Part shown: piece by piece, positions 1-64,000 of the stretch
How the letters are laid out: each line of letters opens with the position of its first letter
How positions within the stretch are numbered: position 1 is the first letter of the stretch
Source of the DNA: Heterobilharzia americana
Taxonomy: Eukaryota > Platyhelminthes > Trematoda > Strigeidida > Schistosomatidae
Assembly (NCBI GenBank): GCA_944470555.2
Contig: OX104127.1
Span: 142,060,786-142,124,785 of the forward strand
Length of the DNA stretch: 64,000 nucleotides
Direction of reading: 5' to 3'
Program-made: the position numbers and the translations under genes
The notes under the pieces: generated by a model
What the model saw: the letters and a program-made list of their open reading frames with translations, nothing else
Databases searched by the model: none
What the model was told of the DNA's origin: nothing

Positions 1-771
1 TCCTTTGAACCAACCGGTCTACCTCCTGTCAGTGGTTCTTGGGCGTTTCAACTGCCAAACTGCCTTAGCTCTCGGTTCTCCTCGGAGGTCATTCCCCAGG
101 AAATATCTTTCCTGGTTATACATACGCATCTGGAGCTTACGGTTAAACTCGTTGGTCAAGAGCAGAGGATCAAGTGACAAGTGTCTGAAGGTGAGCCAAC
201 ATAAATTATCTTCCCTTTTCTATTCTGTCCTTTTGCTGCATTCAGTCTTCAACCCTCTTATTGTTGTTAACTACTTGTTTTCCCAAGAAGTTTATATCAT
301 AGCGACATGTCTGCCCAAAACGCTAGGTCTGAAGCTTTGACACGGATAACGCGGTCGTGCACAAAAAGGGCAGTAACACCCTAAACAACACACTAGTCTG
401 TACTAGAAGACAAACAGAGGTAGGGCAGAACACCGAACTTCTAAAGAAGTGGCCAACCCATGTTTCTAGAATTCCAGTCGCCATCAGACAGGTGACACAG
501 AGTAGCACTAGCCCGTCACAAACTAGTCCTATCTTGAGCAAGGATCATACCATGCCTGAAATAGAAGACGACGTAAAAGGCTTCAGAACAAGGCAGCCAC
601 AAGCAGTTCGCCACAATCCGTAGCACCTTATTCATGGAAGGAAGGCTGTATTACGACACCCGATGGCTGCAGTGTTTGCACCAAAGTTGTTTCGGTAGTC
701 GATGAGGCATTTGTCAACGATGGGCGCATTGCCACTGCGATACCAAAGTCCCCCGACAATACTATAAGCTG

Positions 772-11245: not shown

Positions 11246-11527
11246 TTGCTTTTTTTTAGTGGTAAAAGCGATGACCGTAAGAAAGGAAATATATTCTACC
11301 TGACCAGACATCGAAGGATGCATCGATTTATATCATCCTCTTTAGTTCTTACTCCGCCATCCAGTCGAACAGCACACAGGCAACTGTCAGCCGGGATCCA
11401 GTTGAGAAATGGTCTTTTTACCCCGTGGCTGATTGTTATATTATCGCCTAAATGCCCATTAGGATTGGTTGTCATATTCTCAGTTATTCGAAGTGTGAAT
11501 CACGTAAACACAACCACGTCCATGTGA
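11246..11527 (-). mobile_element. RTE endonuclease fragment, inverted
   Basis: On the - strand the stretch around 11470-11330 translates to pieces like FLNWIPADSCLCAVRLDGGVRTK, matching the LLDWIPVDSRLCAMRLNGTVRTK block of the RTE copy at 18833-22764. Ends are imprecise. Confidence 0.6.
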
Positions 11528-39100: not shown

Positions 39101-39862
39101 AATCGGAAAAGCAAAACAGACGTACATTAGTCTGAAACCAGTGTGGAAGTCTTCTGTACTCAGCATGTGGAACAAGATCCGGACTTCCTTAACCAACGCT
39201 TAGTTTTTTCAAATAGTTGGACTTCATTGTTGACCAAATAACTATGGTTATTAATACTAAGGACTAAGCAAATATACACCAAGCTGTGATATAGAGGTAG
39301 AAATGCATGCAAGAACCACGTGCGCATGTATGATATGTAGGTTAATGGCACTATTTGGCTGTCCAAGCTTCGGTAGGCCAGGCAGTGTTCGAACCGATGG
39401 TCCATTTGGTTGAAAGTTAACGACAGCTCCAACTTTTGTTGATATGCATACTTTAGGGGTTTGAAGTGAACAAAAAACTCCAACATTTTACAGGAAATTT
39501 AGTTCAATCTTCTACGGGGGAATGATAATTGCAATTCACATTTCAAGGTCAAAAATGTGCAGTTAATCTTTTTGTTCAAACAGTGGTACATCTATGACCA
39601 CAAGACTGGGTGGCATGGTTCGAATCTCAGGGGGTAGAGGGCAGGACATTAATTCCTTTGCGGTTGCACATGTGCCTTTTTGACCAGTACCAACAAGCTT
39701 GGAACCTAGGTCAAGTACAGCTTCCTGTCGATTTCCACCCAACGGCCTAACAGTCATTTTAGCATTATTGCTTGTATTAAACCGGCGTTAATTGGACCGA
39801 ATTGATTGGTTTCTATTTGGCATATGGGCTCGTGCACGGGTGCCTCAATACTGCCTGTGTTA

Positions 39863-39937
<75 letters not shown>

Positions 39938-40676
39938 GTCTAATGGATAGTGCTCTGGCATTTGAAGCAATCGGTCCCGAGTCCGAATCCCGGTGGGAAC
40001 AACATCACTCACTTAAAAGCAGATACATTCATCTGATGAGTCCCAAATAAGACGAAATAGCATCCTGTATTCCACTGCTAGTCATTATCTGTCTTTAATA
40101 ACAGTCATTATTTGTAAAACGAGCGATTTCGTACCATCTAGTAAACATGTCTTGAAGATGATTACTCTGTAAATAAGATTTGGCAAACTGACTAACATTA
40201 AATATCTTTGATCCTATTTGTGTATATATCTTTGATATTTGGATTGTGATTATTTCTTTACAGAAATCTTGATGAAGATTATTATGTGAAACATTAGAAT
40301 TATTTGATTATAAACAAGTTGTACATATTGAATTTCTTCTTCCAAAAACAAAAGGTTTCCTCTACTCAACTTTTATTATTTTGCTATTTCTTCAATAACA
40401 AGAAAAAAACACAACGAGAAATGAAGAATAATAACATTTTGATAAAATAATAATGTGTATAAAGCTAATAGTATTTTCAATGGTAGATATGACTTTAATA
40501 ATCATTCATCAATACAATATTCAAGTAGTTCTTTTCAAAGCTGTTTAGACTAATCTCTATGTCAGTATAAATTGGAAAGTATATCTCAGTGTTTAAAGTT
40601 ATTCCATTCCCTTAAAATTCATCTGTCTATGCATTTTAAATCATTGGCCCAAAATATTACATTTATGACATAATGT

Positions 40677-40748
<72 letters not shown>

Positions 40749-42971
40749 GTAAAATGCTTGAAATGTAGCCCATATTGTAAAATGTAAGAATACTTACCAA
40801 AGTTATTTGTATTGTTGACGAAATGATTTATATTGTTTTGTGATTGACAAGATGAATGCATCTGAGAGTTGTTTTGTAAAGTTGAATTGTTCGATGTCTT
40901 TGAAGAACTATGAAGTGAAAATATAATAAAATCATTGACGGATATTAATCAATATTGAGAAATATTATATAATTTACTTTTTGACGGAGTTGTGGAGATT
41001 TTGGAATTATTTCAAGTTGTTATTCATCGTAGACTGACATCAGTTGGAGGAATAAAGGAAAATTTAATTGAACTGGTGCTCATTGGTGACTAGCTTCGAG
41101 AAGTATTCCCGAAGTTCCAATGAGAAGTCGTGACCGGTGGAGTCAAAGCCTGATGGCCATGAGGACAGATACTAAGCGTTGACATTGGGTGGCGGTTGCG
41201 CTATATATCGTGAGCTAACAGAAGTTGGAAATTTGGAGCATTGGATTCTGACCCAGTGGCTCAATGGTAACGCCCTGGCCGCGGGTTCGATCCCTGTCGG
41301 TGGGGTCGTGGATGCGCACTGCTGAGGAGTCCCATACTAGGACGGAACAGCTGTCCAGTGCTCCCAGGTTTCCTTTGTTCCTCCAACTGATGTCAGTCTA
41401 CGATGAATAACAACTTGAAATATAATTTACTACAAGGCAATACTTGTTCAAGAATGATTATCAATGAATAGAGTAGATCACTTGTGAATATATTGGTTAT
41501 GTTAAATAAGGCTGAAACTTTAATTTATTTACCGGATAACAAGGCCATGATAAACATGAATCTTATCGTGTGAGTTGATCGGTTCAGTTCGATTTTTTAC
41601 ACCAGTGGATAAACCGATGTGGCTATGTAGTCTCGAAGTTTATCCACTAAGTTTTTCAATATAGCCATTAAGCACATTGAAATGAAACTTTAGTGCACTA
41701 TATTTCGCTACGGGTAAACTGATTTTCAACATGAGATACAGAAATAAAGTGTATTGTAGTATCAAATCACTTTGTTTACTACACAAATTGCAAACTTAGT
41801 CAATAGACTTCAGTCACTGCTGGGCATTAAGGAATAGATAATGTCATCGGTTACGTACTGGGGACTAATTCGTTTGTTCAGTACAGTCCTTGAAGGAGTC
41901 AGCTGTTGCCTGAGTAGCCTAATGGCATTATCTCTGACCTTAGCACTCACAGATACACTTTGCTGATGAGTGCCAACAGGCATGAAACCTAAGTCTAGAG
42001 CTTTCTAGTCATTCATTCTCAACATCTAACAATTTTGACTTCTAATATCAAATCAGATCAACTGGAAAGTGATGAGACCAGTAACCGACTGAACTAATTA
42101 TCACTTATATAGGCAGTAGTTACTTGTGGAATATCAACTTGTAAGCATTATCTTAGTTGGATTTTCTATAGACGGTTATCAGAACCATAAGAGATTCAAA
42201 TATTTCCATTGAGTTATAAAAAAAATAAAGACTTCAGAGAAGGAATTTGTTTTCGGTGACATCATCCTCTGCAACTGTACAATCGCATTTAAATGTCACT
42301 ATTTACTAGTCAATAATATTGTTAGTAGTTTGTGACCATTAAAAATAATATAGGAATAGAAATTACATAAGATATCTGAAGTAGACATTTACAGGTTAAT
42401 GAAGTGAATGAAGACAGTGAACGGTGTAGTTGCTTCTAGTTTCCATTGTTGCATTATCACAGCTTCAGGAATGCAAACTAAGATAACCATTTCCTCACAC
42501 CATTTGGATGATTACGTTGTACTTTGTAGACTAGTACAGACGAATCTTTTCGAACAATGTATCCATTGTCAACAAAATGTTGCAATATGAAGTTGTTGAT
42601 TAATCTGCAATGACTTTTACTGAGTCATGTTGGAAGGTGCTGGTGTCGACGTTGGACAGTCTGTCTTTGCGTACAGCCGATGTATCAAGCTTCGTGGAAG
42701 CAGGTGATTTGATATGCACACATTGAAGTGGTTAGCAGTGACAGTTTATCCTTTGCATACGTGTTCCTCATTGAATAATTAGTATAGGACTCATCAGTCT
42801 GTGCTTTAGTACAAACTTTTACAGCTAGACTCCCATTATCCGAAAAAGAAATTTAGGCCATTCTAAACAAAGTGATGCCATTCGGAATTATACTACTTTA
42901 CTGTACTCAGCCAAAGGAATCGCTGATTTTAAGTTTCCTTAAGTAGTTTGGAGATGATTAGAAGAGATCTG

Positions 42972-43023
<52 letters not shown>

Positions 43024-46000
43024 AATGTTAGATTCTTTACATGTCAATTAGCCATAATTTTATAGTAATTAGCAGTTATTGAACATAAAACATGAACTTC
43101 ATGTTATATTCAAGCAAAAACGAAAAAAACAGATGATCAGCTTCAGAAGTTTTCTCATCCATAGATACACCTACTGAAATGTACATTGTTTAGTAAACAC
43201 ATACCACTTAACAAATTTGTTGTCAACAGTTGTAATTTGCCGTAATGATACTTGTAGTTTCCTGTTGCTATACAGGGCCAGATTGCTCAGCCTTTGCTGT
43301 TAGTAGATGGGCTCCTATGCGGATGACTCGGTACTGTCGGATATTCATGGTGTTATATTGATCCTGGTGACGCGTTTCGTGGATTCCTTTGTTATTTACA
43401 GAGATTAATCTAACATCATGAATATCCGACAGTATCGAAGCATCCCTATAGAAGCCGATCTGCCAACAGATATCGAGCAATTCGACCATGTATAGCAACG
43501 GGAAATAACAAGTTTCATTAAAACAGCTGATACTCATTGCATAAGATGTGGTTATTGTGCTTCGGTGGCTTAGTGGATAACGCTCTGGCGTTTGAATCAA
43601 AGGGTATTGGGTTCGAGTCTCAGTCGAGAGGTCACTCTGCACTGAGGTGCAGATACGTCCGGCTCACGAGTCCCGAATAGGACAAGACGCGTGTCCTGGA
43701 TTCCTCTATTCCTCACCAAGCTCAATATAGTTATAATTTGTCTTAAAGCAGTATTCTTATCAGATATTGTTTGTTAAGATCTCTCGTTTCTCACCCTATA
43801 ACTAACTGTTTATTAGTTGTACGAATACACTTATTTATACAACTACTAATTCCAACAACTCTATAATCTGTAGTGACGTAATTTCCTGAGACAAACACCT
43901 ATAGAACATCATGGAATCCTTAGCCTTGTTAACTCACTTTATTCCAAAATTGGTCTATCAATGCCATCACTATACATGATAATGATTTTATTTCTATAAC
44001 AGGTGAACTTTTAATATGATGGACTAAATGATTAACAATGAACAGTTTGAGTAAAGAACACTTTATAGAAATGTTTCATTATATAAGTTTCATGCTAGGA
44101 GAGGTTGGATTAGGATGGAAGACGATTCATAGTGGTCAGATAAAAACGTGGCAATGAGTCAATGAAGTCTCTTACTGTTGGTCTTAGCCGTGCGGAAAGA
44201 TGTAGACTGTTTGGTTGGTTGGCTGCCTTGAGACGAAAGGAATCAATGGGTGAGGGGATTGATTCTTGCTGAAATGGCTGAAAATTGGTCACAATTGGGC
44301 AGATGTATTCACTCTTTGACATCTTCTAAGGCTTAAATATTCACACTAACATTTATCTTCAAATTATTTACTGTGTTACACTACTTTATCTGCTTTGACA
44401 TTACTCCTTTTCTATCCATCTGTTATTTGTGTAATTCTGTGGTGAAGCGTGGCAACTTGAGTCAATGTACTTGTGTGCGAGGTTCTAAGTTGATTTAGTA
44501 GGTCAGTCAGTCAGTCAGTCAGTCAGTCAGTCAGTCAGTCAGTCAGTCAGTCAGTCAGTCAGTCAGTCAGTCAGTCAATCAATCAATCAACCGATCAGTC
44601 CGACTGTTATCAGTTCGTGATGAAGTTACTCGTAAATTCATAAATCGAAACGAATAAGCAACTGAATTCTTAAAAATAGAATGGTCAGTTTGATAATGAT
44701 TTACAAATTGCACGCTCCACTTTAACATTTCTCACAGTTGAGTAGTTTTTCAACTGATCAACTGTGGTGTCAATAAGGTTTCTATTAAAAACTGCCTTAC
44801 AACAATATTCACCATATATTAAGTAATTCAACTGTATGAGAGGTACACCTCTGATGCATTGAGTAGCATGCAGACGATGAATACTAAAAAGAAACACTAT
44901 TCCATTGCTCTCAGTTTTACAATAGTTCTCCAATTGACTTCACTTTGTTATGAAAGATATTTTGTTTACTTTTGATATATTAAGGAAGAAAAATGTCAAT
45001 ATGAAACAAAAATTTAAAAGATCAACTATTTGATTAGTTTATTTACTCTACATATTTACAGAAGAAAAACATTTTTGTAAAAACAATTCAAACATAACTC
45101 TTCATTTTGAGTACTGAACGCTTATCTGGTGGTAATTAGGTTTAAGGAGTAATGAGTACTGACCTCGATTACTACCTTCAAATGTTAATAAAAACTATCA
45201 TAGTAATGATAACTAGTGATAGTAATCAGGCTATACCATAGATTAATTTAACGTGAAAAACAATGATGATAGGATTTCAGATAAGAGTTAAAAAAGAGAT
45301 GACTTAGCCTCAAAATCTGTATATCTAAGGATTGGCTGTATATGACAGTCATGAAAACTTTAATTACTTGAGCATCAGAAAGTCAGACAAAACAGATGCT
45401 CAATTCTTTTTGGGTTTAAGTTGTCCTTTAGGCATTCGTTAGACCGATAAAAATATCTAAGAAGACTTGGATTTCGCCACCGATCATGATCTATGTCTAA
45501 TGTCTTCTCTCACAAACTCGAAAATCTATTCACAGACGAAGACTAACAAGTTGAAAGAAGAGGCGGGGCAGCGAAGGAAGATGGCACTGACTTCAGGTGG
45601 ACGTACAGAAGACACAGGTGGTGAAGATACCCAACCAACAACACCTACAACAAGCAACAATTACCATCAACGGGGAAGTCTAAACAAAGTTCTCCCTCTC
45701 ATCTACACAGGCACCATCGTCTCAACTACACGTGGCGGTTCTGGCACACATGACGGTGTCAAATTGGAGATATACTGCACTGCACACCACTCAGCATAAA
45801 TTGTGAACAACATCCGGATTTTCAACACTAGTATCAGTCAAGTAAGTCAGTGCTTCTATATGACGGTTCACAGACTTGGCACCTTACGAAAAGTATTCAC
45901 AACAAACTACAAACATACATCAAACAACAGCTGCCACCTGCGTTCACTCCATACTGAAGAATAAGCAACAAGGAATTCACTCTGACTGGTTGACAACGAA

Positions 46001-49000
46001 CCAACCAAGAACCTATTGCCTAACAAATGTGCAGAAGAAGAGAGTGGAGATGGATTGGATTGGCCATACACTGAGAAGGAAGACGGTTTGGGAACATTTC
46101 GTGCCAGGCCAGGCCGTTGAGTAGAACTCGTATGAGAAACGACGAGTTGGGCATCCGAGGTGAGGGTGATATGGAGGAGATGATGTGAGGAGGAAATGAA
46201 AGCTTGTGGTCAGTTGTGGAGCCAGGTTCAAAAGATTGCAGAGAAGAGAGTGAAATGGTGACGTGTCACTGAAGCCCTATGTTCCACTAGGAACCCAAGG
46301 GATAAATGATAATAATAATAATAATAATAATAATATATTTTTGAGATGAATGGGGATTTTTAATTTAGAAGTAGTATTCATCATAGACTGACACCAGTTG
46401 GGGAACCATTGAAAATCTGTGAGCACTGGACAGCTGTTTCGTCCTAGTATGGGACTGCTCAGCAGTACGCACCCACGACCCGGCTGGGGATCGAACCCAG
46501 TACCTTCAGGTTTCACGGCGAACGCGTCAACCATTCAGTCACTGGTTCGGTTTCCAGTGGTTCACAATTTCCAACTTCTGTCAACCAGCCGGAAGTGAAG
46601 TGAATGCTAACTGAAGACCTTGGGTGACAGTTGCGCTATGTCGTGATTTGACAGAAGTTGGAAATTGTGAACCACTAGAAACCGACCCAGTGACTGAATG
46701 GTTAACGCGTTCGCCGTGAAACCTGAAGGTACTGGGCTCGACCCCTAGCTGGGTCGTGGGTGCGTACTACTGAGGAGTCCCATACTAGGACGAAACAGCT
46801 GTCCAGTGCTCCCAGGTTTTCAATGGTTCCCCAACTGATGTCAGTCCATGATGAATACTACTTCTAAATAATGATAATAATAATAATAAGTCATGATTTA
46901 ATTCAAAAAACAATTGCGAAATTTCTAACAAAAGACACTATTCTTCAGATTGTGCAGTTCAGAATATAAAATACCTACCAAGTGTTACGATTCGTAGAAT
47001 TTGGATCAGAATTACGATTTGTCTTATTCTCTGTAAATAATTTGATCAATTCATTCCAATTGTATTTGTATCAAGGTGAAATAGAAGAACAAGAACACAG
47101 AATTATTTGATAAATTGGTAAACAGATAAAAGATAATCATTTTCTAACCAAGTTATAAAAATAGTTATATGAACAGTCAAAACAGAGATAGACAATAGTA
47201 AAACAATTTATTGATAACGAGTAATCTGTCTGCTTCAATGAATAAGAAAAATGTATTAAAAGAAAAGTGGGAAATTTTTATAGTAAGTCGATTAACTCGA
47301 GGAAATCCTTCTGAACAAGTAACTCAGTGGTGGGAACAACATCATTCACTGGGAGGCAGGTACATCCAGCTGATGAGTCGCAAATAGGACGAAATGCGCC
47401 TCCTGGATTCCACTGCTAGCCACCGCCCATCATTACTATATATGATTAATTAAACAGATATCTGTTTTCAAGTTAAGAATTTGACAATAACTGTTTTACA
47501 ACTGTTTACTTGTTTTAATAGCATTTATTGTACAAGTTTTCTGTTCATATGATTCAAGCCATGGTTACTATCAAACAGACTGCATCCTATGACCAATATA
47601 CTCCAGTTTCTGAAGGAAAGGATTGTGGAATTTTTAAGTTTGGTCACTGCTATTCTCATATCATTCTTTTTCTTTCAGACAGTAAACTTTGTAAAAACCC
47701 TACTTGATAACTATGGATAATTGTTTGGCACAACTGATTCTTGCAGACCCGAATGAAAACTGGTACCTTGACTTGGTAGTTGGACTAGCATATCACAATA
47801 ACTGCTTGTTCGCTCGATATCCCAACATGCCAGAAAGGTCTGTTGGATAGTGGTAAGACGAAAGTAGTTACCGTTGTAGTGTAAATTACTAAAACTCACG
47901 CTAATTCTGCCTTTCCGACAGAAAGAGAGAATTAGAAAAGATTGGCTCAAAAAATAGTACACTCCTTTCTGCCATATAACCCTCCGGTGCCAGAGGTATG
48001 GGTTTCTCCTATCCGTCATTGGAAAAACCAAACCTCAAAACAACATCCCGCGAAAGGCAACATGTGACGGGCATCAAGGAGATATCGGATGGGATCTGTG
48101 GTCAGAAAAACCATTTTCTCTTTCAGGTACCCTTAACAAGAACTAGACTTCCACGGTGTTGGCAGCCGGGAAGTGTCAATTGTCCACATGCTTCCAGTAG
48201 TACACAGGACACAATCAAACATAACCTATTCTCTTCAACTCCGTCTATTCCTTTGCTTTCACCTACTCATACCAATGGTAAGCGTCTTACACCTTCCTCA
48301 ACCTCTCACTTTGCAACCACTGTCAAAGATCAAAGCCATCGAAACCTCATTCCTAGTCTCCTAAGACACCACCCGCTATCGATTTCATGTAGGAGCTTTC
48401 AACGTCTACACTCCATACCAAATCGGATAGCGTACATCACTCGCCGAAACTCTGGAATCTCTAGCCATGGATATATGCTGTTTTTGTGAAACACAAATAC
48501 AAGGCCTGAGTGTAGTTATTAAATTGACGTCACCTAAACGTAGTTATGAATCTTCAAAATTCACCTTAAGAGTATCCGGGATCCAGTGGCTTGCTCTCGT
48601 GGTCGTGCTAGTGTGGGCATAGCATTGGGCTGTAGAGCAGAAAGTGCGCTTCTCGACTGGATACCAGTCAACAGCCATCTATTCGCTGTTCGACTGAATG
48701 GAACTGTAGTAACTAGGAAGAATCGTGACATTAAGCGATGTCTATTCGTCATCTCCCCTTACCCACCCACCAACTGCAGTTATGATGATGCGAAGGATGA
48801 ATTCCATGAGAAGCTGTCAATTTTGCTACAGAAAGCAAAACGCTCATCTGTAGTCATAATAGCAGGTGACTGACCAACGCTCAAGTAGGGAAGCTGAGCC
48901 GATCGGAAAGGTATCTTGGTGGCATATACGGAATCCCAGGCAAACGAACTGACAACAGTGGTCGTATGTTGCAATTTTGTTCTGACAATCACTTGTTTCT

Positions 49001-52000
49001 GGCTGGCATAAGAAGAGACACTGTGTCACATAGCGTCCGCCGAGATCAAACTAAAGACGGACACAGACCACATTGCTATAAGCCATCATTGGAGACGACT
49101 GGCGAAGGATTGTCGCTCTTCCTGGAGTACCAGTTTGAACTCCGGTGACGCGCTAGTACGATCTCTTGTGTGCCTGCACCTTACTGGCAGCAAGCAAAAG
49201 AAGGCAATAAAACGTGTACGTGCTCGATGGGAAGACGAGAACACCAAATACCTCAAACGCCACAGAGCAGCAGGACCTGACAGTTTGTTACGTGAAGTTT
49301 TCAAGGATAGAGGTAGGGGATTGCTGATAAGAGCGACAGAAGTACTAGGTAGTGTATGGTAATCACAGGTAGTGCCGTCAGATTGGTCTAGTTCACTGAT
49401 CAACCGAGTTTATAGGTAGGGGAAGAAATTTTCTCCTGATATCCGTAAGGAAATCAGTTTGACCAATATTGTGTCAAAGATCCAAGATCCAAACGTCTAA
49501 CTGGAGCCAGAGAAAGGACTGCAAACTTGAGAAAACCAGACCAGTTTTCAGACACTGATGAAGATACGTCAATCAGATTTTTACCCTATGACAGGTTCTG
49601 GAACACACACATACCTATCGACCAGTGGCCGACACTTGCCATATTTCTAGACTTGGAGGCGACATTCTCTCTTGTCGACCGTAAGGTGTTGTGGCACTGT
49701 CTGACTGTGAAAGGAGCTCTGAGCAAGTATATAACGCCAATCATAGTTCTCTACTTGAACTCAGGAAGCCATTTAATGTCTTATGCAGAGTTGTCATATT
49801 TATTGGCGACAACTAGTGGTGTCCGCCAGGGATACCCACTATGTGTTCGACGTTTTACGTTGATTTAGTCAGTCAGTCAGTCAGTCAGTCAGTCAGTCAG
49901 TCAGTCAGTCAGTCAGTCAGTCAGTCAGTCAGTCAGTCAGTCAGTCAGTCAGTCAGTCTTATCAGTAGTGATCGAACCAGTTGATATATCAAAAATCAAC
50001 AAGGTTCGCTTAGTGTTTGGAGATAATTTAAACTTATACACCTTATTGACATTTAGCCTACTTTGTAGAAACGGATGCGATAGTCATCCTAACTGCTCGC
50101 TTTATGAATTTCATTTGACTCCTTCACCAGTAACAGTCAGCTTTATAACAATCATATGGGAGGTAAATTACAATCCATTATATTTGCGTTACTGAAACTC
50201 CATAGGCTGAAGTGTCAAGGTGAAAGAAGCATGATAATAGTGAAGATAGTTTTTTTCTAAAGTGTCAACTATTTTAGTTATCTTAATCGAAAAAAAATCC
50301 AACTTTCATGCTTTTAAACTTTTTCAACAACTTTAATCTCAAGTAAGACATAAGATTCTGGTGAAATAGGTAAAAACTCTGTTCAGTTTATTTTAGATTG
50401 GTAAAACATTCAGTTATATCAACTTCTCGGCTAGAATACCCCAACAATAATTGCAGACAGCTGATTTCATGTCATCTTTGATTCTACTATAGTGCTGTTG
50501 TAAACCAGTCAGTCACAAAGTACAAGACAATAAAGTTGAGGTTGAAGATAAAATACACTACCAAATTGCTACTCAAGATGTTCGACTTAAAGTTCTTGAG
50601 TCTTTAAATATTTTTGATCGGTAAACTATAAGTTTTACAGACTATTTCATTGATGAAAGGCTCTTTGCTGTTGATAACTGTATTAGGATGCGGTAGATTA
50701 CGGTAGTTACTAAAAGTAACCATTATTCTCATCTTATTGAGATGTTATGATCAGTGAGTCTTTAAGGGTTGGATATGTTTTTTACACTTTTTCCGCTTGA
50801 AAAACTTGTGAACATTGTCTGTCAATAAGCGAATGGAATAATGGGTTTCAAGATATTACAAGGTAATCATAGAAATTCAACTTTGTTCGGTAAAGATGAT
50901 CTTCAGAGCTATAAACTGATTTTCTGACCATTTTCATCATATCCTTTACGTACAACTCATCCTTGTCTACACTTTTGATCATGAATTCAGTCACTTTTGA
51001 AAGCATATTGTTTCGGTACTCAGTTAAAAAAACTAGGTCCAACTTTCGAAATATACTACTGAGTAATATGAGTAGTTTGAGACCATTCACGCTGATCTGT
51101 AGAATTTGCTAGCCAGATCAGAATGGTTTAAACACCAGATGTCCATTTCTCTCTGGCCATTGGCATTCCCGGAAAAAAAAGTCAGCTATTAGAGCTGAAC
51201 TGTTCAATCAAACTGAATCTGACTAGCTGACTTGGCTGGGACCAGTATCCCCTAAAAAAAAAACTGCAAACGATATACAAACTGGACGGTTCATGGAAAT
51301 CCTGTTGAAATCACGGTTTGACAGATGAAAAATAACTCAGCTACTCATGACACTTTTATATCGGTGATCACATATAGTGATCCTGGCTGCGGGATGATTA
51401 CCAACGGACACCTTGTTGACACTATAGTTAGGAAGTTGAAAAGCCACTCAACTTAGAAATATCAACGTGAACCATGTAATTAGTTAATTATTTGCAGCAA
51501 ATCGATAATCTTATTTTATGTTCAACTAGTTTTGTCTAGTTAGTCATGTTGGCTACGACATTTCGAAATAAGTCCATCGTACACAATTTCATGAAACAGT
51601 TCATATGGCCATAACAGAAACTGTCATAGTTGTGTGTACTTCTGTACTGTGGGTAGCTGGCTATAATACGATATATTTGATTCCTTATTTTTGAGATGGA
51701 TGTAGGGTGATAAGCGGCACATTTTATATATTCTGTTCTAGGAAGATTCTACCACAACCCATATAAATCTAGAGTAGATGGTACCTGCTATGCGACCGAT
51801 AGGTTTCAGTTGGTCGCCTAAATGTCTCTATCTTATACTACGATATATATAATCTGTTTATTCATGTCCCCAGTTAGCACAACTATGTTTAACATCATGT
51901 TTTCATAGGATACTGTTTTGGTGAGAGAAATAATTTTTGTTGACAAGTGGATTGTAACCCATAACAGTGTACCTAGAAATGACAAAAGAATGTCGTTATA

Positions 52001-55000
52001 ATTCAATGTTATTGATTGGTGTAACAGTATTCATCATCCTGATATCATATTCATGATTATTAGTGGGAAGCGATTTCAGCTTCAGTACCTAAGAAACAGA
52101 CCTCAACAAGTATAGACGTCAATGTCATGGAGTTCTGGGGTAAATTCACATTGAACATAAGCTTTGAGCTGGTAATTAGGGGAATTACTCATAGCTCTTC
52201 ATGGGGCTTTTGAGTGTGGTTCTTTGACCTATAAGACAGATAACAGGTGAAAATTCTTCTATGCCTTTAGTCAAGTCTTTCTGTTCTCAGATTTACTGTA
52301 AGGCGAAAATACCTAGAGACAAGTAGATGAAACAAAACACAATTGGTTTCAAAATATCGAAACAATGGAGAAACATTTACACGACACAGGTAACGTATGA
52401 TTCAGAGTGATATCCCAGAAGTCCAAACCTTCAATAGTGATGAGGAGCTAAGTAAGGAGGGTTAATGTTCAAAGTAAGAAGCAGTTTAAACCAGGACGCA
52501 ATAAAGAAGTAAAGTAAATAATTAAGTAGGGTTCTTTTGATAAATAAAGCTTAATGTACAATAATAGTAATAATAGTAATAATAATAATAATAATCATAA
52601 AAAACTTGTGTGAAATCTGTTTTGTAGAATAGCATGCCATAAAATAAATGGATTTCGCGCTGTTGTTCAAAAAGCCCAGGAGGAAGCAGGTGATAATGTT
52701 AGAGGAAAATTCTCGAACTTTTGATTTGAAGTTTAACTGATAAGTTGGGCTTGGAGAGAGACGAAATTTCATAGAGCTGCATCTCAGTGACTATCAGTTA
52801 CTTAAATAAGCTCATTTTTACAATAATTGGTCACTGGAGAGAACAACTAATTACCTGTTGTCTAGTTCTGATGTGCTGACTGAATACTATAGATCATTAT
52901 GCAGTTCTATAGCTCAGCGGTAACGTCGCTGACTGCAACGTTGAGTCACACGCGTTCATATCTCAGAGGGGATATTAGTTTATTTGAGGTTTCAGATACT
53001 CATTGCTGATAAGCTCAAACAAACATGAAATTTAGGACTAGCAGAACTTCCTATCGACTGCTTCCAACCAACTGACAAGCTCAACTATACTCATTCATTT
53101 GGGACACTTTTACTCATATGCAATGCTAACTTATTATTGAGATTTCTCAACTCACCTACATAGTGTATCTTATATAACCTGATGTTGTCAATTCGGAATC
53201 CTATAGCTCTAAATTATTATGGTGTGGTATGATATAAACGTATTTTTAATGAGATAATTTTGAGAGCTTTTATTTAAGGTTACACATGCAGACAAAGAAA
53301 AATATAACACTGTAAGCAGTGAATATGACTGTACTTTAAGATATAACTAGTCTACTGTGCCAAGTCAGAAATCTGACTACGTTTTTCAGGTTAAGTGTTC
53401 AAGTGACTGTAATGATCACTCTTGAAATCACTAATTAAACAAATTAAACAGTTACCTTCATAAAATTAAGTCGAATCTTAAGACATAATCCAGAAATCTA
53501 ACTGGTTAGTTCAGTGAATACTGGGTAATGATCAAAGGTGAAATGAAAATTTAAATCGCAGCCGGATTCGAACGAACGACTACCAGATTTTCGGCCCGAT
53601 GATCTACCATGGCTATCTCAAACAGTCAAAATGATAATCAATACGATGCTCTCCCTCCCTAATTTAAGGAGATTTTGATTGGGATGAGAAGTTCTGACTG
53701 GTCAGGCAGTGTGAGTATCATCAAGTGATAGTAAGACGTCACAAATTTACATGATAGCCTAGTAAGATCCTTAGTGACTGAAGTGAAATTAAGACGTGAT
53801 CGGTGGTTAGATTTCGCAGTTCAGTTGATAGAGGACTGGACCGAACAACATGATGGTCGCTAGTTCGAACCCGGACGATAGTCAAAGTGATAATTTCAGT
53901 GGATGTTAAACTGACCTTTGAAGTTACTCAATTGTTCTCAAATTCAATCAAGATATCATACTATACTTTTAGAAACTATACTGGCTAGAAAGACTTTTTT
54001 GATTTTCCACTCTATCTCATTAGCAAAGAGAAAAAAACTAGTTTTAAAAAATTACACTTGAACTCGATACTTTATAAAGAGTTCATTTATTATTAGTGAG
54101 ATAGCTCAACCATCAAAAATAGACACTTCCAAATGTGAATTATGTCTATACAACAAAAGTAATTATCATCTGTATAATCGAGTTGATAGATAGCTAAGAG
54201 TATGATCATATTGTTAACATTGTAATCATTTGGAACTGCTTTCGAGATAAATTAAACCACCTATTCAACGATAAACACTATCACTTCCATAAAATAAGAT
54301 AATGAATACACAGATAGACATGGAATGAGTTTTATTTTTCAAATACTTTATGTTCTAATGATTGATATTATCACAGATATCGATTCCTTTCCTAATATTA
54401 TAATTCGTAAGTTATTATTGCTTTTTATGAAGATATATACTTCAGTGTGAATTTTATCAAGTGGTAATAGCCCGTAACGAATTCACATGGTAGTCGGATA
54501 AAACCCTTGGTGATTGAAGTGAAATAAAATTCTGGTCAGCAATTAGATCTCGTAGCTCAGTTGGTAGAGCACTGAGCCTGTAACCTGGTGGTCGCTGGTT
54601 CAAATCTCGCCGCGGTTCAAATTCTCATCTCACCTTCAATCATCACTCAGTATATATACTTAAGTACTTTTATTTTAAGCTAACTATTCACGCAAAGTAA
54701 TATTGGTCAATTTAATAAAAAACAACATTTCCGTTTACCAATAATTATAAAACTTTGTACCTTAAAATGAATGATTTTTTAAATGCTAAAAAATTATTTC
54801 AAACTACTACTAAGCTAAAAAAAAAGTTTACATGGAAGTTAATTGAAGTATGTAGATACGTTTATGTTTTTTTTTTATCGGACTAAACTTTAGTGATGAC
54901 CAGTCACTTTCAAGTGTGCGTTGACCAATCAGAATCAGGTATACATAAGACAGTGTAATGGTATTTTATTAACAATTTAAAAATCTGTTTTACATGAGAT

Positions 55001-56723: not shown

Positions 56724-56736
56724 CTATAGAGGTAGG

Positions 56737-57050
56737 ATGAAGAGAAGTAAAATAAAGCTTTGTGAAGTATGTGGGTACGGTTATAAAACCATCAAACATC
56801 GACAAGCACTGAACAGCTGTTTCGTTTTAGAATATAACTCCTCAGCAGTACGAACCGACAACGCCACCCCACCAGGAATCAAAATCAAAATATTCAGATA
56901 TCACAGTGAACGTGTTAATCATTCAGCCACTGGTTTACAGTTTCCTACTTCTGTCAATTTGCGACATAGCTTCAAGATGAGACAGTTCTCCAGTGCTTCC
57001 AGGCTTTCATTGGTTCTTTAAATGATGTCTGTTCGTGATGAATACTACCA
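56737..57050 (-). repeat. Family B SINE, foldback remnant
   Basis: The - strand unit has a hammerhead at 56806-56851 and a degenerate tRNA head (B box lost, about 56870-56930). On its far side a + strand partial copy without head (ACAGTTCTCCAGTGCTTCC to CGTGATGAATAC, 56980-57045) makes a truncated head-to-head arrangement. Confidence 0.65.
56806..56851 (-). ncRNA. Hammerhead ribozyme motif, family B
   Basis: Stem I GTACTG/CAGTGC fully paired (one G-U). Core CTGAGGA intact. Stem II GTT/AAC, where both strands changed relative to GTC/GAC so the third pair is T-A for C-G. GAA intact, stem III ACAG/CTGT perfect, cleavage triplet GTT (permitted but usually slower). Confidence 0.6.
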
Positions 57051-57329
57051 TAAAACTTTTCATTTTAAGAATAGTCTTTTGAAACGAAGATTATTACGAG
57101 AGTTGAAGACTATCAACGCATTTTAGCATAGAAAAGTCATTTATATGATAATAATTATGGATCAGCAATTTATACATCAATGAGGCTTTCGAAAGGCAGT
57201 GATAAAAGTTATGATTATCGGTATAATCTTTAATTCGTGTATTCGATCACCTCGATCAGTTGGTATTGAAAGGTGTAATAATTTATTTCCAGGTATTGAT
57301 ATAAGTCTATTAGTGGCAGTCAAATCTCT

Positions 57330-58500
57330 ACCTGGACTTCATCAATTTCGAAAAGGTCTTCGACAGCGTCGACCAACAAAGTGATTTGGCAGCTGCTGCT
57401 TCAACATTACCGAATACCACAAAACTTTATCAATCTCATTCAATAGCTGTATGAGGATGCCATATGCCAAGTGATTCACAATGGAAAGCTCAGCGACGCC
57501 ATTGAAGTGAAGACAAGAGTAAGACAAAGCTGCCACCTACTATCACCCATAATCTTCCTGATTGTGGTCGACTGGACGGGATGATGCAGCAAACCGTGAG
57601 GAGCGAGAAGATGGGCATGCGCTAACTGGACCGATGAAAATAGCCTAGAAGACTTGGATTTCGTCACCGATCATGATCTATGTCTAATGTCTTCTCTCAC
57701 AAACTCAAAAATCTATTCACAGACGAAGACTAACAAGTTGAAAGAAGAGGCGGGGCAGCGAAGGAAGATGGCACTGACTTCAGGTGGACGTACAGAAGAC
57801 ACAGGTGGTGAAGATACCCAACCAACAACACCTACAACAAGCAACAATTACCATCAACGGGGAAATCTAAACAAAGTTCTCCCTCTCATCTACACAGCCA
57901 GCATCGTCTCAACTACACGTGGCGGTTCTGGCACACATGACGGTGTCAAATTGGAGATATACTGCACTGCACACCACTCAGCATAAATTGTGAACAACAT
58001 CCGGATTTTCAGCACTAGTATCAGTCAAGTAAGTCAGTGCTTCTATATGACGGTTCACAGACTTGACACCTTACGAAAAGTATTCCCAACAAACTACAAA
58101 CATGCATGAAACAACAGCTGCCACCTGCGCTCACTCCACACTGAAGAATAAGCAACAAGCAATTCACTCTGACTGGTTGACAACGAACTAACCAAGAACC
58201 TATCGCCTAACAAATGTGCACAAGAAGAGAATGGAGATGGATGGGATTGGCCATACACTGAGAAGGAAGACGGTTTGGGAACATTTCGTGCCAGGCCAGG
58301 CCGTTGAGTAGAACTCGTATGAGAAACGACGAGTTGGGCATCCGAGGTGAGGGTGATATGGAGGAGATGGTGTGAGGAAGAAATGAAAGCTTTTGGTCAG
58401 TTGTGGAACCAGGTTCAAAAGATTGCAGAGAAGAGAGTGAAATGGTGACGTGCTTCTGAAGCCTTATATTCCACTAGGAACCCAAGGGACAACTAAAAAT
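57330..58500 (+). mobile_element. SR2-like RTE 3' fragment
   Basis: It opens with DFIKFRKGLRQRRPTK-like and AAAASTLPNTTKLYQSHS pieces. LDFVTDHDLCLMSSLTN and NKVLPLIYTASIVSTTRGG are joined to HDGVKLEIYCTAHHSA and a stop. The 3' coding and UTR are as at 45437-46335. It ends near GGAACCCAAGGGACAACTAA without the long (ATA)n tail. Confidence 0.8.
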
Positions 58501-59689
58501 ATAGTATGATAATATAAGGTTATTAGCTATGGGATACAGTGTGGTCGATAGTTTTGCCCAATATGATACGTCACGATGATATAACCTTCGAAAGGTGAGG
58601 TATCTCAGATGTAGGCGATATATAGAATAAACACTTAACAATATTCACGTGGCCATGGAGTGATAAGAGTGAGAAACTTATACATACAATTCAACAGTGA
58701 ATAGCTATAAATATGTATCTCAAAAGAGCCAATAAGAATGAATGAATATATTCCACAGATTACCTTTTATTGTTTATTCAAACACCTAAACATTGGCATT
58801 AGCTTATTTCTCTTTCAATTATACAGTGAAATTAGAGAAGCTGACAACAAACAATATGTCAAGTAACTGGTAAAAACTATACAAACTTAAAGTTTTTTTC
58901 ATTCAGAATTAGGTTATTTTGAACGCATTGATAGATAAAATAATGATTCTCAGATGAACAAAATATCCAACTAATTAACGAGTTTTACAGATTGATGTAA
59001 GCGGTTTCTAATTATTCACATAATTTAATGAGTTCCACAGAGGTCATATCTTGTATCCTAAAAATGTCATTTTCCAAAGGAACTCACAGGAGAATAGAAT
59101 ATCTATTTTTTTTGTGAAGGGTGTGTGTGTGTGGCACAGTTTCACCATCTTACCCTTTCTTGAACAGTAAACTGTTAAACATATGCTTTCATTTATTCAT
59201 TTAGATATAACTTCTTAAAAATTTAGAAGCTGATAAATTTTTTATCCTTTAATGGATAGAATAATCGAATTAAAATATGATGATTTATAGAAATTGTGCT
59301 GATTAGTTAAAGTGATATCTAGTAAAACTGGAGTCAAAGCAACTAAAGGTAACTAGTAAAACATTTTCATACACTTGTTAGATGCAGAGTGCACATCAAA
59401 ACTTAATTTATATGACAGAATTAAAGGAAAAACATAATTATTTCTGAAGACCTCTCTGAATGCAAACCAAAACAGAAGGCTAATAAATCATGCTAAATAA
59501 ATGGATGGTATATAAATAGGAATGAAAGAAGACTATGGTCAGTGTCTAGTTATTTTAACATTAGCTTCCTATTTCTCCTCGGCCATTCTTGTTATCCTAG
59601 CTTCTTAAAACTTTATCTCTGAATATTCCTTATGAGCAAATAAATTTAGGCATCTATAAATAATCATTTTAACCATCTGAGATAGTCGT
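58501..59689. other. Unassigned AT-rich stretch
   Basis: No coding or repeat content was recognised, apart from a short GTGTGTGTG run near 59125. Confidence 0.4.
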
Positions 59690-60210
59690 AGTTTGGTAGA
59701 CTTGTATTGATACTGGGTGATGATTGTACGTGAAATATGAATTCAGATCACCGCGGGATTCGAACCAGTGACTTCCAGCTTACTGACCAGGTGCCTTAAT
59801 GAATGAGGTATGATAGCCAACTGCTGACTAAATCATAATTTCTCTTCGATCACCAAGACTTCCATCTTCAATCATTAACCAGTATCAATACAAGTCTAAC
59901 AAACCGCAGCTATCTCATATAGTCAAAATCAATACGATGCTCTCCCTCCCTAATTTAAGGAGATTTTGATTGGGATGAGAAGTTCTGACTGGTCAGGCGG
60001 TGTGAGTATCATCAAGTGATAGTAAGACGTCACAAATTTATATGATAGTCGAGTAAGATCCTTGGTGATTGAAGTGAAATTAAGACGTGATCGGTGGTTA
60101 GATTTCGCAGTTCAGTTGGTAGAGGACTGGGTGGGACAATATGGTGGTCGCTGGTTCGGATCTGGCCACAATCTAAATTTTCATTTCATCTTCAAACATC
60201 ACCCAGTATC
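59690..60210. repeat. Family D SINEs, inverted pair
   Basis: The - strand unit near 59700-59810 (GGGATTCGAACCAGTGACTT region) and the + strand unit near 60105-60210 (TTTCGCAGTTCAGTTGGTAG, GCTGGTTCGGATCTGG) enclose the same middle segment as at 53640-53800. Confidence 0.65.
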
Positions 60211-60640
60211 TATAGGCAATGTTTTCTGGCAGGAAGTGTTCGTAATCGAAATCATGATTTCAGGTCACTGTGTAATGAGATCGATGCTTTCTAGTTAGCT
60301 TCATTGTGTCATTAGAACATTCTTGCTATTAGCACAGTTTATTGAACCAATCAAAAGGGGTCAGTCCTTTTCCTGCTCAATTTTACCAAATGAGAAAACA
60401 CATTTTTACTGTGAAACATTAAACGCCCATTAATATTCAAGGTCAGCGTTAAAAATTACAATACTATAATAAAGGATAAAATATCAATTGAGACAGAATT
60501 CGTTTCAATCACTGTGGCCATATAGGGTGATACTTTGTGATAGTATAAAAGAGAAACAACTACCTTCTATGAATATTTCCAAAATAAACAACAGTTTTCT
60601 TAAAGTTTGACGTTTACAGGAATTTCAACTATTTCAGAGT

Positions 60641-61200
60641 AGTATTCATCACAGACTGACATCAGTTGGAGAACCATTTTAAAACCTAAAAGCACTTCAC
60701 AGCTGTTTCGTTCTAGTACATGACTCTTCAGCAGTACGTACCTACGACCAGACTACCGATCGAACTCAGGACCTTCGGGTTTCATAGAGAATGGATTAAC
60801 CATTCAGCTACTGGGTCGGGTTCAGTTCAGTAGTTCACAGTTTCCAAGTTATGTCAATTCGCGATGTAGCACAGCTACCACCTATAGTCTTCATTTGATA
60901 TCTGCTTTCCTACCGACTGGTTGACCCCACAAGTCACGGCTTCTCATTGGAACTTCGGGATATCCATATGGAATCATTTCACTAATGAGCAGTATACAGT
61001 TATGTATTTTTGAGGTAAATTGAGATTTTAATTTTGATTCAGTATTTATCACTGACTGACATCAGTTGGAGAATCGGTGAAATCTGGGAGCACTGGACAG
61101 AGGTTTCATCCTACTATGGTACTCCTTAGCAGTACGCACCCACAACCTCACCTTGCCAGAAGTCAAACTCTGCGCCTCCAGGTCTTGCGGCGACTGCGTA
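60641..61200 (-). repeat. Two family B SINEs in tandem, dead hammerheads
   Basis: Unit 60975-60641 has CTGAAGA, GAA and palindrome ACAGCTGT, but G at the cleavage position. Unit 61200-61030 has CTAAGGA (G5 changed). Both keep the tail ACTGATGTCAGTC. Confidence 0.65.
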
Positions 61201-61489
61201 ATGTGTAATGGAAGCATAAAAGTAGCTGTTCACTTGTTCGCATTTACCTTGGCTGCCTAGTCAGAACTTCTCATCCCAATCAAAATCAACCTGAATTTAC
61301 TCAAATCAATAATTATAAACATTCTGACCGAAGTGGTTATGAATGTCTAGGAAGAAGTTGAGCGCTGAGTCTAATTTCATCATTATAAAAATATATTTTA
61401 ATATAATCTCAGCGTGTTTACAAAGATATTTCTGAAAGTTTTGTTGTGTAAACCATAGCTTCATCAGCAGGACGTACAGATTTTTTTTA

Positions 61490-62100
61490 TCAACACCAAA
61501 CTATACAGTCAAACGATATATCGAATATTTAGTGAATGTAGGAGTTGAAACGGGTTCACCAATATTTCTAATTGTTGTGAATCTCTATCTGAAGGCTTTG
61601 GAAGAGATTATTTTCCTTAAGAAGTGTCCAATGCCAACCCAGAATTTGGTACATATAAATATGAATGATACACTTTGTTATTCTTAATAAGGTAGGCCAC
61701 AAGATATTTTTCGAACATATAAAGTCTATTTCATATTCAGTTAAATCTAAGGACGGTACTCTAAACTTTTTAGATTGTTTTATCCAAAGAATGATTGTAG
61801 GTAAATTCAGTATAAAATATGCAGTAAAAGAAACATATTCCGATAATTATTTTGAATTCCAGTCGGATCATCCAACCAACATAAAAGCTAATGTCTCATT
61901 GAACTTACTAAACAGAGAGGAAAACATCATAACCGATCCTACTGATTAAGAAAATGAAATCTTCATAATAAAACATATTTTAATGGAAAATGGATACCCC
62001 TAAAAGGTTTCTGAACAATATTGTTGATCAAATGAATAAAACTGGTAGTACTACAGTAGTGGAAGTTGCTGATACGAATGGATATAAGTAGTATTTGTTG
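61490..62100 (+). mobile_element. Penelope-like RT fragment, second family, decayed
   Basis: GVETGSPIFLIVVNLYLKAL, then HINMNDTLCYS (YVDDT region, altered), then a frame at 61665-61949 with KSKDGTLNFLDCFIQR and YSDNYFEFQSDHPTNIKANV, the typical block after the palm in Penelope RTs. Stops are near 61690 and 61950. It is distinct from the 25.3-kb element. The 62100-62760 stretch holds no clear feature. Confidence 0.65.
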
Positions 62101-62759
62101 AGAGGGTGGAAGAAATTATAGGAAATTACCAGCAATGGGTAAAGATTCTGCCCAGAGAAACGCAAAACACAAGGCAGGTGTATGAAGAGCAAATCGAGAA
62201 AGAAGCAGAAGAGGAAATGAAGCATATTTGCAAGTCCAAAGTCCTAAGATGACATAGAACAACTATGTCTACAAAATTCAATGTGTGGAACTGAATTGGA
62301 GAAAGTTGTAGACCCTTAAAAGTTAGGATGAATGAACATGAGTTATGTATGAAACATCCATTGAGGAATCAAAATGAATTAAAATACTTAGAAAAGAGAT
62401 CAGTAGTAACTATGTATGCAATCAATAGTCAACATTTAATTGACTTTGAGAATATAGACATAATGGGAAAAGGTTATCATTCAAATAAAGATTAACTTCT
62501 GAAGTCATACATCTGTTTAAAAAAATAAAAGGCTACATAAACAGAAAAGAAGCAACTGACTTGTCACCTACTTGGCAAACAATCTGACAAAACTACTAAT
62601 GATGACCTTTTCTAATTGAAGCTACAATAACATTAACAATGACAGTTATAGACGGTTCATGAATAAAAGAAACAACAAGTATTCTACAACGTACATAAAC
62701 ACACACAGTTGGATTATCCTACATTTTTGTAAACAAATAATAATAAATAGTGTCCAAAT

Positions 62760-63130
62760 TTTCATTTCACCTTTAGTTATCATCTAATGGTTATCTCATA
62801 CAGTCAAAATGATAATCAATATGATGCTCCCCCCTTCCTCCCTAATTCACTTACATTTGGATTGGAATGAGAAGTCCTGACTAGGCAGATAGTATGAATG
62901 AATTCAAGTAGTAGTAATGTGTCACAAATTCACATGGTATTCAGGCAAAACCCTTGGTGATTGAAGTGGAATAAAAATATGGTGGGTAGCTAGACCACGT
63001 AGTTCAGGTGGTAGAGCATCGGGCCGGTAGTTTCTGGTTGAGATCCGGCTGCGGTCAAATTTTCATTTCACCTTCAATCATCACCCAGTATGAATACCAG
63101 TCTGCCGAACCACAGCCATGTCAGATAGTT
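62760..63130 (+). repeat. Family D SINE with upstream middle segment
   Basis: The middle segment is at 62800-62950. The tRNA-like head CACGTAGTTCAGGTGGTAGA near 62996 has a weakened B box (GGTTGAGATCCGG), followed by the tail TCACCTTCAATCATCACCC. Confidence 0.6.
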
Positions 63131-63299
63131 AAAATGATATTCTTAATTATTCAGGCTGGACAGAAAACCACCTAACCGAAGACCTATATTCTCGGAAATT
63201 TTGTTACATTATTTAAATACATATATTGATGTTAATAAAAATTTGTATATTCTGCTGAAGCAGCTGTGGCTTGGCGAAACATTTAGAAATATTAAGTCA

Positions 63300-63835
63300 G
63301 CATTCGTCATAGACTGACATTAGTTGAAGAAATATTGGAAACCTAGGAGCACTGAACAGCCAGGTGTTTCGTCCTAGTATGGGACTCCTCACCTCTGCGC
63401 ACCCATCACCCCACCACTCCAGGGATCGAAAGCAGGAACCCCAGGTTCCGTAGCCAGCACGTAACTATTGAAGCCGTAGGTCGGAGTCAGCTCACGACAT
63501 TGTCCGACCATCATCCAATGTCATCATTAAGTATTTATCCTCACGGCCACCAGGTTAGACCCACCAGTCACGACTTCTTATTGGAACTTCAGGAATCACC
63601 TCTTAAAGCTAGTGACGAATGAACACTAGAAGTTGGAAATATGGACCATTAGATTCCGACCCGGTGGCTCAATGGTAACGTACTGGCCACGGAACCTGAA
63701 GGTCCAAAGTTTAAGCCCTGACGGGGTGGGGTCATGGTTGCGCACTGCCGAGGAGTTCCACACTAGGACAAAACAGCTATCTAGTGCTCTCAGGTTTCCA
63801 ATTTTCTGTGATGAATACCAACATGAAATCAATAA
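63300..63835. repeat. Family B SINEs, head-to-head pair, dead hammerheads
   Basis: The - strand unit is at 63300-63520 and the + strand unit at 63630-63835 (CGGTGGCTCAATGGTAACG). The - ribozyme has lost C3 and stem I; the + one reads CCGAGGA with AAA for GAA. Tails point outward as in the 46.4-kb foldback. Confidence 0.7.
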
Positions 63836-63904
63836 ATCCTCACTAACCCCAAAATCGAGTTTAGAAATATGTTATTTTGATTTTCCAAACACACTGGCAC
63901 TATA

Positions 63905-64000
63905 GTAATGATGGATAGTGGTTAACAGTGGAATCCAGGATGCGCGTTTCGCCCTATTTGGGACTCGTCAGCTCGATGTACCTGCCTCCCAATGATGTTG
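63905..64000 (-). repeat. Family A SINE, cut by the window end
   Basis: On the - strand: the spacer CAACATCATTGGGAGG, the hammerhead at 63933-63977, and the tail TTCCACTGTTAACCAC. The tRNA head would lie beyond 64000. Confidence 0.7.
63933..63977 (-). ncRNA. Hammerhead ribozyme motif, family A
   Basis: Core CTGACGA intact. Stem II GTCC with GGGC (G-U allowed), GAA intact, stem III ACGC/GCAT with one mismatch, cleavage triplet ATC, stem I ATCGAG/CTGGAT with one G-G mismatch. Confidence 0.6.

Follow-up and report, generated by a model that had tools for sequence, protein, structure and literature searches.

Paired insertion ends in hammerhead-bearing short repeats of Heterobilharzia americana suggest mobilisation by a Penelope-type reverse transcriptase

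How short repeats that carry hammerhead ribozymes come to be inserted in an animal genome is the question raised by a stretch of 64,000 nucleotides of the trematode Heterobilharzia americana (assembly GCA_944470555.2, contig OX104127.1, positions 142,060,786 to 142,124,785), here called the window, which holds copies of three short interspersed element (SINE)-like families, A, B and C. These appear to be tRNA-derived short repeats with hammerhead motifs, and we estimate at about three in four the probability that they were inserted by a Penelope-type reverse transcriptase (RT) starting from one of two sites in the repeat, S or L. With less assurance, we also lean towards the wider reading that schistosome hammerhead SINEs are a Penelope-dependent class, in which two RNAs would be copied from both cut target strands, one from S and one from L, and the cDNAs joined head to head, leaving two diverging ribozymes per insertion.

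The hammerhead-motif families are real. Across the genome (665 Mb, 337 contigs) the exact pattern of each family, CTGANGA-N(6-30)-GAA-8-mer-C, occurs at 654 (A), 7,179 (B) and 858 (C) places, and since the reversed patterns used as controls gave only 0, 0 and 1, chance is excluded. The proposal of a first-pass annotation of the window, that it contains three repeat families with tRNA-like boxes and hammerheads, is borne out. With stem III left open the pattern is found at 11,475 places in the genome versus 3 for its reversed form, and the CUGANGA and GAAA core of the type I hammerhead is recognised both by Rfam matches and by the exact patterns. Sequences resembling A and B boxes can be discerned by eye in all three families. 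The B unit, taken from a tandem locus (L033), measures 401 nt and the C reference 331 nt, and families A and C are homologous, with 70.7% identity over 140 nt. Family B includes a subtype, B2, with 3 nt extra in stem-loop II; on contig G000:C1 no B2 ribozyme (CATACTAGTGTGAC type) is present among the first 22 B rows listed (0.3-2.29 Mb), and many are present at 2.29-6.6 Mb. A search of viral contigs with two ribozyme patterns gave 0 matches.

The positions at which the copies end are informative about insertion. The 401-nt B unit was mapped on 64 B loci, of which seven had no match at 75% identity. Among the 75 match ends with at least 80% identity, 29 fall in zone S (unit 366-372) and 32 in zone L (394-401/1-5), with a gap of about 31 nt between the zones, and the 5′ starts are scattered. 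Family A was mapped on 27 loci and family C on 26, with references that extend past the cleavage site to +156 in A and +185 in C. Counted from that site, the 45 ends in A include 19 at +30..49 and 16 at +150..156, where the reference stops, and the 36 ends in C include 19 at +33..45 and 15 at +159..185. Depth over the A reference is 18 rows at +150 and 5 at +165; over the C reference it is 16 at +165 and 6 at +180. The end zones are tight in B and looser in A and C.

Matches were chained into insertions and their ends assigned by fixed limits: in B, S spans 353-378 and L 379-401 or 1-15; in A, S spans +28..50 and L begins at +108; in C, S spans +30..50 and L begins at +155. Six loci (L031, L032, L103, L104, L123, L124) had been picked for holding pairs and the others were consecutive listed rows. 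L008, L022 and L113 (same insertion or copy as L007, L021 and L112) and L034-L037 (same places as L009, L010, L012 and L013) were excluded from the counts, and the near-identical L004/L005 and L039/L040 were all kept. In total 60/132 insertions are head-to-head (B 34/62, A 14/36, C 12/34) and 0/132 are tail-to-tail, single insertions make up 28/62 in B, and partial head-to-tail tandems exceeding one unit are present. The same orientation recurs among the 300 rows listed, where close opposite-strand ribozyme pairs are divergent in 15 cases and convergent in none. The arms of B pairs abut, with gaps of -34 to +31 nt in 29 pairs, and in many pairs they overlap by a few nucleotides.

The two arms of a pair tend to end in different zones. 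Among scorable head-to-head insertions (three in each family were unscorable) the ends comprise one S and one L in 31/31 cases in B, 8/11 in A and 8/9 in C, or 47/51 in total. Among single and tandem insertions the two zones are used in similar numbers (S:L 13:11 in B, 10:8 in A and 9:8 in C, with 13 unscored), and 50% was therefore taken as the null, against which the rule yields p 1e-10 for all pairs and p 0.02 for C alone. Many pairs are enclosed by a target-site duplication (TSD). An exact TSD of at least 7 nt was found in 27/47 S/L pairs compared with 2.1% in randomly re-paired flanks; TSDs of at least 9 nt occur in 14/33 B head-to-head insertions (0.16% expected), and TSDs of at least 7 nt in 7/14 A and 3/12 C head-to-head insertions (1.6%). 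The fifteen that reach at least 9 nt (14 B, 1 A) are 9-15 nt long with 81% A+T, and the full range of lengths is about 7-15 nt.

The ribozyme subtypes indicate what was copied. Subtypes B1 and B2 are mixed in 9/21 B pairs with both ribozymes typed, where 8.3 are expected at random, suggesting that the two arms of a B pair frequently derive from separate templates or from distinct units within a mixed multimer. A mixed multimer of this kind is seen in L057, where the subtype changes between successive units (B1 and B2) of the tandem B right arm. Derived differences are shared more within pairs (17%) than between them (6%), which would allow a common template for some pairs; in 5/26 cases the nearest arm is the partner itself. 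That every pair was made from one RNA is, in general, unsupported by these figures.

In the mechanism we favour, RNA would be transcribed from the tRNA-like internal promoter, and multimeric transcripts would be processed by the hammerhead, possibly acting as a dimer in which stem III is 8 bp long. A Penelope-type RT, presumably that of a Penelope-like element, would then copy RNA from both cut target strands, each copy starting at one of two fixed repeat sites, S or L, the arms being derived from a pair of RNA templates or from separate units of a single multimeric RNA. The case for Penelope-type insertion draws on family B, in which a 31-nt tail present once per pair, head-to-head arms, partial tandems, TSDs and a ribozyme within the unit all match, and on the one-per-arm tendency of A and C.

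Two published Penelope systems invite comparison. The purified Penelope protein of Anolis cuts and extends both target strands, starting at two adjacent internal sites that were equated with the genomic 30-40-bp 'tail' (PMC11167929). In a rotifer, a Penelope insertion has inverted pseudo-long terminal repeats (pLTRs), a 31-bp tail optionally on one inverted pLTR and a 9-bp TSD (PMC3846280). The present families share several features with Penelope-like elements: the repeat contains a hammerhead, tandems are partial, inverted arms lie head to head, one arm (in B) has a tail of about 31 nt, and TSDs near 10 nt occur in AT-rich DNA. They differ in that A, B and C carry tRNA-like promoters, that the tail is longer in A and C, and that all three are too short to encode an RT and a GIY-YIG endonuclease (B 401 nt, C 331 nt), for which reason we do not regard them as Penelope members. 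The strict rule of one site per arm and the mixing of subtypes go beyond the accessible accounts in PMC11167929 and PMC3846280.

Several observations weigh against Penelope-type insertion. A 30-40-nt tail from two start sites is seen in B (about 31 nt, 31/31 S/L), but not in A, where about 115 nt or more separate S and L, or in C, where the separation is about 120-150 nt; these two families share with B the one-per-arm tendency at a longer spacing, and L in A is not pinned down because its reference stops at +156. Four scorable A/C pairs are L/L, and in 3/31 B pairs (L046, L049, L066) the L end falls at 381-383, in the interval separating the two zones. Family A alone is not significant (p 0.11), and with L004 and L005 looking like one insertion copied its independent S/L cases number 7. 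An intact ribozyme was the basis on which loci were chosen, the family references are rough, the head-to-head share of 60/132 is raised by the six loci picked for pairs, and the end mapping was confined to the ribozyme families A, B and C. The start sites of the Anolis protein showed no apparent difference between top and bottom strand in vitro (PMC11167929), and the authors of PMC3846280 favour self-priming for head-to-head structures.

Penelope relatives, a possible source of the enzyme, are abundant in the same genome. The search for a Penelope-like RT piece scored 150 matches of 2,540 candidates, three of them in open frames of 808-809 amino acids, and a GIY-YIG family search gave 2 matches among the best 150 of 882 candidates scored. 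We take the RT pieces to be Penelope-like from a neighbouring GIY-YIG match and from motifs known to us by eye. At least two close divergent pairs of Penelope RT pieces, head-to-head as in the SINEs, were observed (G000:C2:38216239-38217091 and G000:C1:127965921-127966430). One copy was read closely (L129 with L130 and L131, G000:C2:27418000-27424000). It has an open frame of 808 amino acids and an RT domain (E 9e-12); a direct repeat of 302 nt is present, and a 5′ arm of 1.7 kb recurs in inverted orientation at 99.6% identity, from which the element is probably recent. Its C-terminal stretch resembles the Penelope endonuclease by eye, a resemblance for which Pfam gave no match. The copy has no sequence in common with A, B or C, no hammerhead was detected in L129 by Rfam or a script scan, no TSD is evident in the L129-L131 copy, and its arm ends map 265 nt apart, all of which adds to the points against the reading just listed. 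Rfam detected no hammerhead in the Penelope loci L126 and L127, and the script scan gave one weak candidate with one mismatch in L128.

Other explanations were weighed against the same data. The families may be viewed as animal retrozymes, whose ribozyme-cut monomers are closed to a circular RNA that serves as the template. We hold this account as possible but tentative. Animal (non-LTR) retrozymes are likewise small non-coding repeats with type I hammerheads and tandem copies (PMC7229834), and the type I hammerheads and partial tandems longer than one unit seen here agree with the published model. It is also compatible with Penelope mobilisation, since Penelope elements have been named the likely movers on grounds of co-occurrence (PMC7229834, PMC7761336); the mobilising enzyme is only proposed in the accessible part of PMC7229834, while a footprint from genomic copies is given here. 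Ribozyme-cut 5′ ends are however not in excess among arm starts (1/75 versus 1.3 expected), although this test is biased by the choice of loci with an intact ribozyme, a bias that also counts against our own reading. A single monomer circle would moreover be insufficient for the mixed pairs, given that 9/21 join two subtypes and the right arm of L057 holds both, and ribozyme cutting was unneeded for insertion in vitro (PMC11167929). It has alternatively been suggested, as in PMC3846280, that in Penelope-type insertion a single molecule primes itself to give the head-to-head arms, with no second template involved. The greater sharing of derived differences within pairs and the short overlaps between the arms of many pairs speak for this, but mixing of subtypes at the level of random pairing and arms that begin from different sites do not, and we find it unlikely.

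Ordinary SINEs resembling Sm-alpha, mobilised by a long interspersed element (LINE) and inverted by LINE-type twin priming or later rearrangement, would account for the tRNA-like A and B boxes, and TSDs of 7-15 nt are generally compatible with LINEs too. Twin priming is, in general, expected to invert the 5′ part of one copy, whereas both arms here hold the same 3′ region, and the use of two end zones, one per arm, is an end structure that argues against LINE mobilisation. Later rearrangement is unlikely for the 27/47 pairs in which one TSD encloses the whole pair. Sm-alpha is classed as a SINE in the literature (PMC8293314). The plain SINE reading was dropped as the whole story after the 222-nt palindrome of the window was found, and in its LINE-driven form we judge it improbable. 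Still lower stands the suggestion of non-autonomous DNA transposons or foldback elements with terminal inverted repeats. Such repeats together with TSDs are present in many B copies, and the elements W26 and W27 were labelled 'DNA transposon' in PMC3701142; the arms are nevertheless 5′-truncated at scattered points, many copies have no inverted repeat (the single B insertions), and the ends are asymmetric, with S on one side and L on the other, which makes this explanation very improbable. Foldback chimeric reads, a familiar artefact of long-read data, can produce palindromes, but these would have identical arms and no TSD, and with subtypes differing in 9/21 pairs, zones in 47/51 and TSDs in 27/47, the likelihood of an assembly artefact is negligible.

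The ribozymes themselves were compared between and within families. The consensus stem I is ATCCAG/CTGGAT in A, GCACTG/CAGTGC in B and GCCTTG/CAGGGC in C; stem II is GTCC/GGAC in A and B and GTGC/GCAC in C; and stem III is a different palindrome in each family. The sequences of stems I to III thus differ between families yet still pair, as the first-pass annotation had maintained for stems I and III, and since A and C are homologous their stem differences represent true compensatory changes. For the 32 A, 54 B and 28 C sequences analysed, selection had used the core and an 8-mer within 2 mismatches of the founder, so only stems I and II were openly tested. Pairing in stem I ranged over 72-97% in A, 65-93% in B and 57-86% in C, and in the first 4 pairs of stem II over 81-97%, 83-100% and 75-93%, respectively. 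In an open stem III pattern, 99 of 100 rows were typed (one AGCT row was left out), and 46/99 carried a non-founder 4-mer, of which 17/46 still pair, 2 by Watson-Crick alone. Neutral transitions could give this proportion, and selection for stem III pairing within families is unsupported, the copies mostly decaying. The idea that base pairing rather than sequence is conserved at stem III holds between families and lacks support within them, and the covariation check that had been proposed came out in the same way, positive between families for stems I and II and dominated by decay within them.

A stem III without a loop, as originally described, is impossible in cis because a hairpin requires one; the 8-nt palindrome can there form at most 2 bp closed by a 4-nt loop, and a stem III of 8 bp requires the pairing of two molecules. 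Folding predictions are compatible with the suggested action as dimers. The B-B and C-C duplexes are predicted to form a double hammerhead with 8-bp stem III at -33.1 and -33.4 kcal/mol, versus -29.0 (B) and -26.0 (C) kcal/mol predicted for a pair of monomers. As monomers, none of the three consensus RNAs is predicted to fold into the hammerhead. The combination of a palindromic stem III with dimer formation has been published before (PMC3088659, Fig. S8 legend).

Family A resembles the Sm-alpha SINE of Schistosoma mansoni (W36.2) and Sj-alpha in its Hammerhead_1 match, tRNA-like promoter region, short repeat and stem III ACGCGCGT (Rfam consensus), and B and C differ from these in stems and tRNA-like parts. 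The paired S/L insertion structure does not appear in the accessible published description of Sm-alpha. Hammerheads have been reported in four W-element families, W25.2, W26.2, W27.2 and W36.2 (= Sm-alpha), and self-cleavage has been published for Sm-alpha; 3/5 candidates drawn from W25.2 and W36.2 cleaved in vitro, the family of the three being unstated in the text available (PMC8490949). W25.2, W26.2 and W27.2 are hammerhead ribozyme repeats with autosomal copies, minimal type I hammerheads and an extremely short stem III, and, by published description, their lengths (415-428, 399-402 and 403 bp) can be set beside the 401 nt of the B unit (PMC8490949). With hammerheads in W families other than Sm-alpha on record, the earlier statement that no description of families B and C was known goes too far. 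The accessible part of that report does not describe a two-end insertion rule, and our literature search found no report of a two-end footprint in hammerhead SINEs, which is not proof of absence.

Within the window, Rfam gave 10 Hammerhead_1 matches at gathering score (best E 7.8e-12). The Rfam search recovered A and B copies and missed family C even at E 10. The exact family B pattern has a single match (46770-46803) with near-exact copies at 41316, 46423 and 56806, and the exact family A pattern has 0 matches across the window. The 8-mers first quoted for B and C were correct, whereas that of A is intact only at 33813-33857, outside the annotated range 39576..63977 and after a changed core. 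The two 8-mers assigned to family C were confirmed, both lying inside matches to a C reference built from genome copies: ACCTAGGT within 39581-39752 (72%, E 1e-22) and ACCTAAGT within 41950-42031 (74%, E 2e-11). A third decayed C copy matches this reference at 52909-53077. Several of the A, B and C repeats form head-to-head pairs, which had been overlooked (Table 1).

Table 1. Repeats of families A, B and C in the window and the hammerheads they contain
Feature	Position	Strand	Details
A copy	17106..17379	-	hammerhead 17130-17178, 4-nt insertion in core
B fragment	18676..18791	-	hammerhead 18734-18779
A (Sm-alpha-like) head-to-head pair	33557..33951	.	hammerhead 33813-33857 +, intact ACGCGCGT preceded by GAG not GAA; further A copy 33553-33630 - below Rfam gathering score, as Hammerhead_HH9
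B copy	35201..35520	-	hammerhead remnant 35235-35280, below gathering score
C copy, B-box-like GGTTCGAATC	39581..39752	+	decayed hammerhead core, intact ACCTAGGT at 39703-39710; ends at S
A head-to-head pair split by TA microsatellite	39792..40084	.	hammerhead 40027-40070 +
B head-to-head insertion	40974..41423	.	- left arm ends unit 401 (L), + right arm ends unit 370 (S); BLAST of 401-nt B unit
B hammerhead, stem III ACAGCTGT, core GGA for GAA	41316..41361	+	Rfam RF00163 43.3 bits
C partial tandem	41784..42031	+	hammerhead 41957-42001 with ACCTAAGT at 41987-41994
A head-to-head and partial tandem	43248..43754	.	hammerhead 43657-43701 +
B head-to-head insertion, hammerhead per arm, adjoins AAT microsatellite	46332..46906	.	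inverted arms 222 nt, 94% complementary, separated by 63 nt; right end unscored, two alignments conflicting
B hammerhead, left arm of 46332..46906	46423..46468	-	Rfam RF00163 40.7 bits
B hammerhead, right arm, intact core and ACAGCTGT	46764..46809	+	Rfam RF00163 43.0 bits; exact pattern
A copy	47330..47449	+	hammerhead 47364-47408, 8-mer region ATGCGCCT; Rfam 55.6 bits
C head-to-head insertion	52818..53077	.	- arm ends at L (+169 from cleavage site), + arm at S (+36); decayed hammerhead
B head-to-head insertion	56805..57061	.	hammerhead 56806-56851 on - strand
B head-to-tail tandem, ~1.5 units	60593..61198	-	two hammerhead remnants, 60692-60737 (below gathering score) and ~61090-61135
B head-to-head insertion	63281..63855	.	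hammerhead remnants 63349-63398 -, 63742-63787 + (the latter below gathering score); left arm stops near S (u378) and right arm near L (u397)
A copy, cut by window end	63909..64000	-	hammerhead 63933-63977, 8-mer region ACGCGCAT; Rfam 51.2 bits

Other repeats share the window. A fourth tRNA-SINE-like repeat, in which no hammerhead was noticed, is present at 53636-53874, 54444-54658, 59927-60214 and 62819-63096, with an Rfam tRNA match at 54546-54618 and some inverted neighbours (59661-59735, 59860-59934). Two copies of a 300-nt repeat, at 45442-45741 and 57629-57928, are 97% identical, and two similar arrays of an 8-nt tandem repeat lie at 44448-44620 and 49814-49998 (17 overlapping registers, one 117-nt family).

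For the enzyme that moves animal hammerhead repeats, ends at two sites, one per arm, together with TSDs would offer a footprint of the reaction itself. This two-end rule may be checked in any animal genome bearing hammerhead repeats. If the Penelope-type reading is right, thousands of natural insertions would be available for reading how Penelope integration proceeds with respect to the two strands, the start sites and the templates, and ribozyme SINEs would be tied to a third class of retroelement besides the machinery of long terminal repeat elements and LINEs.

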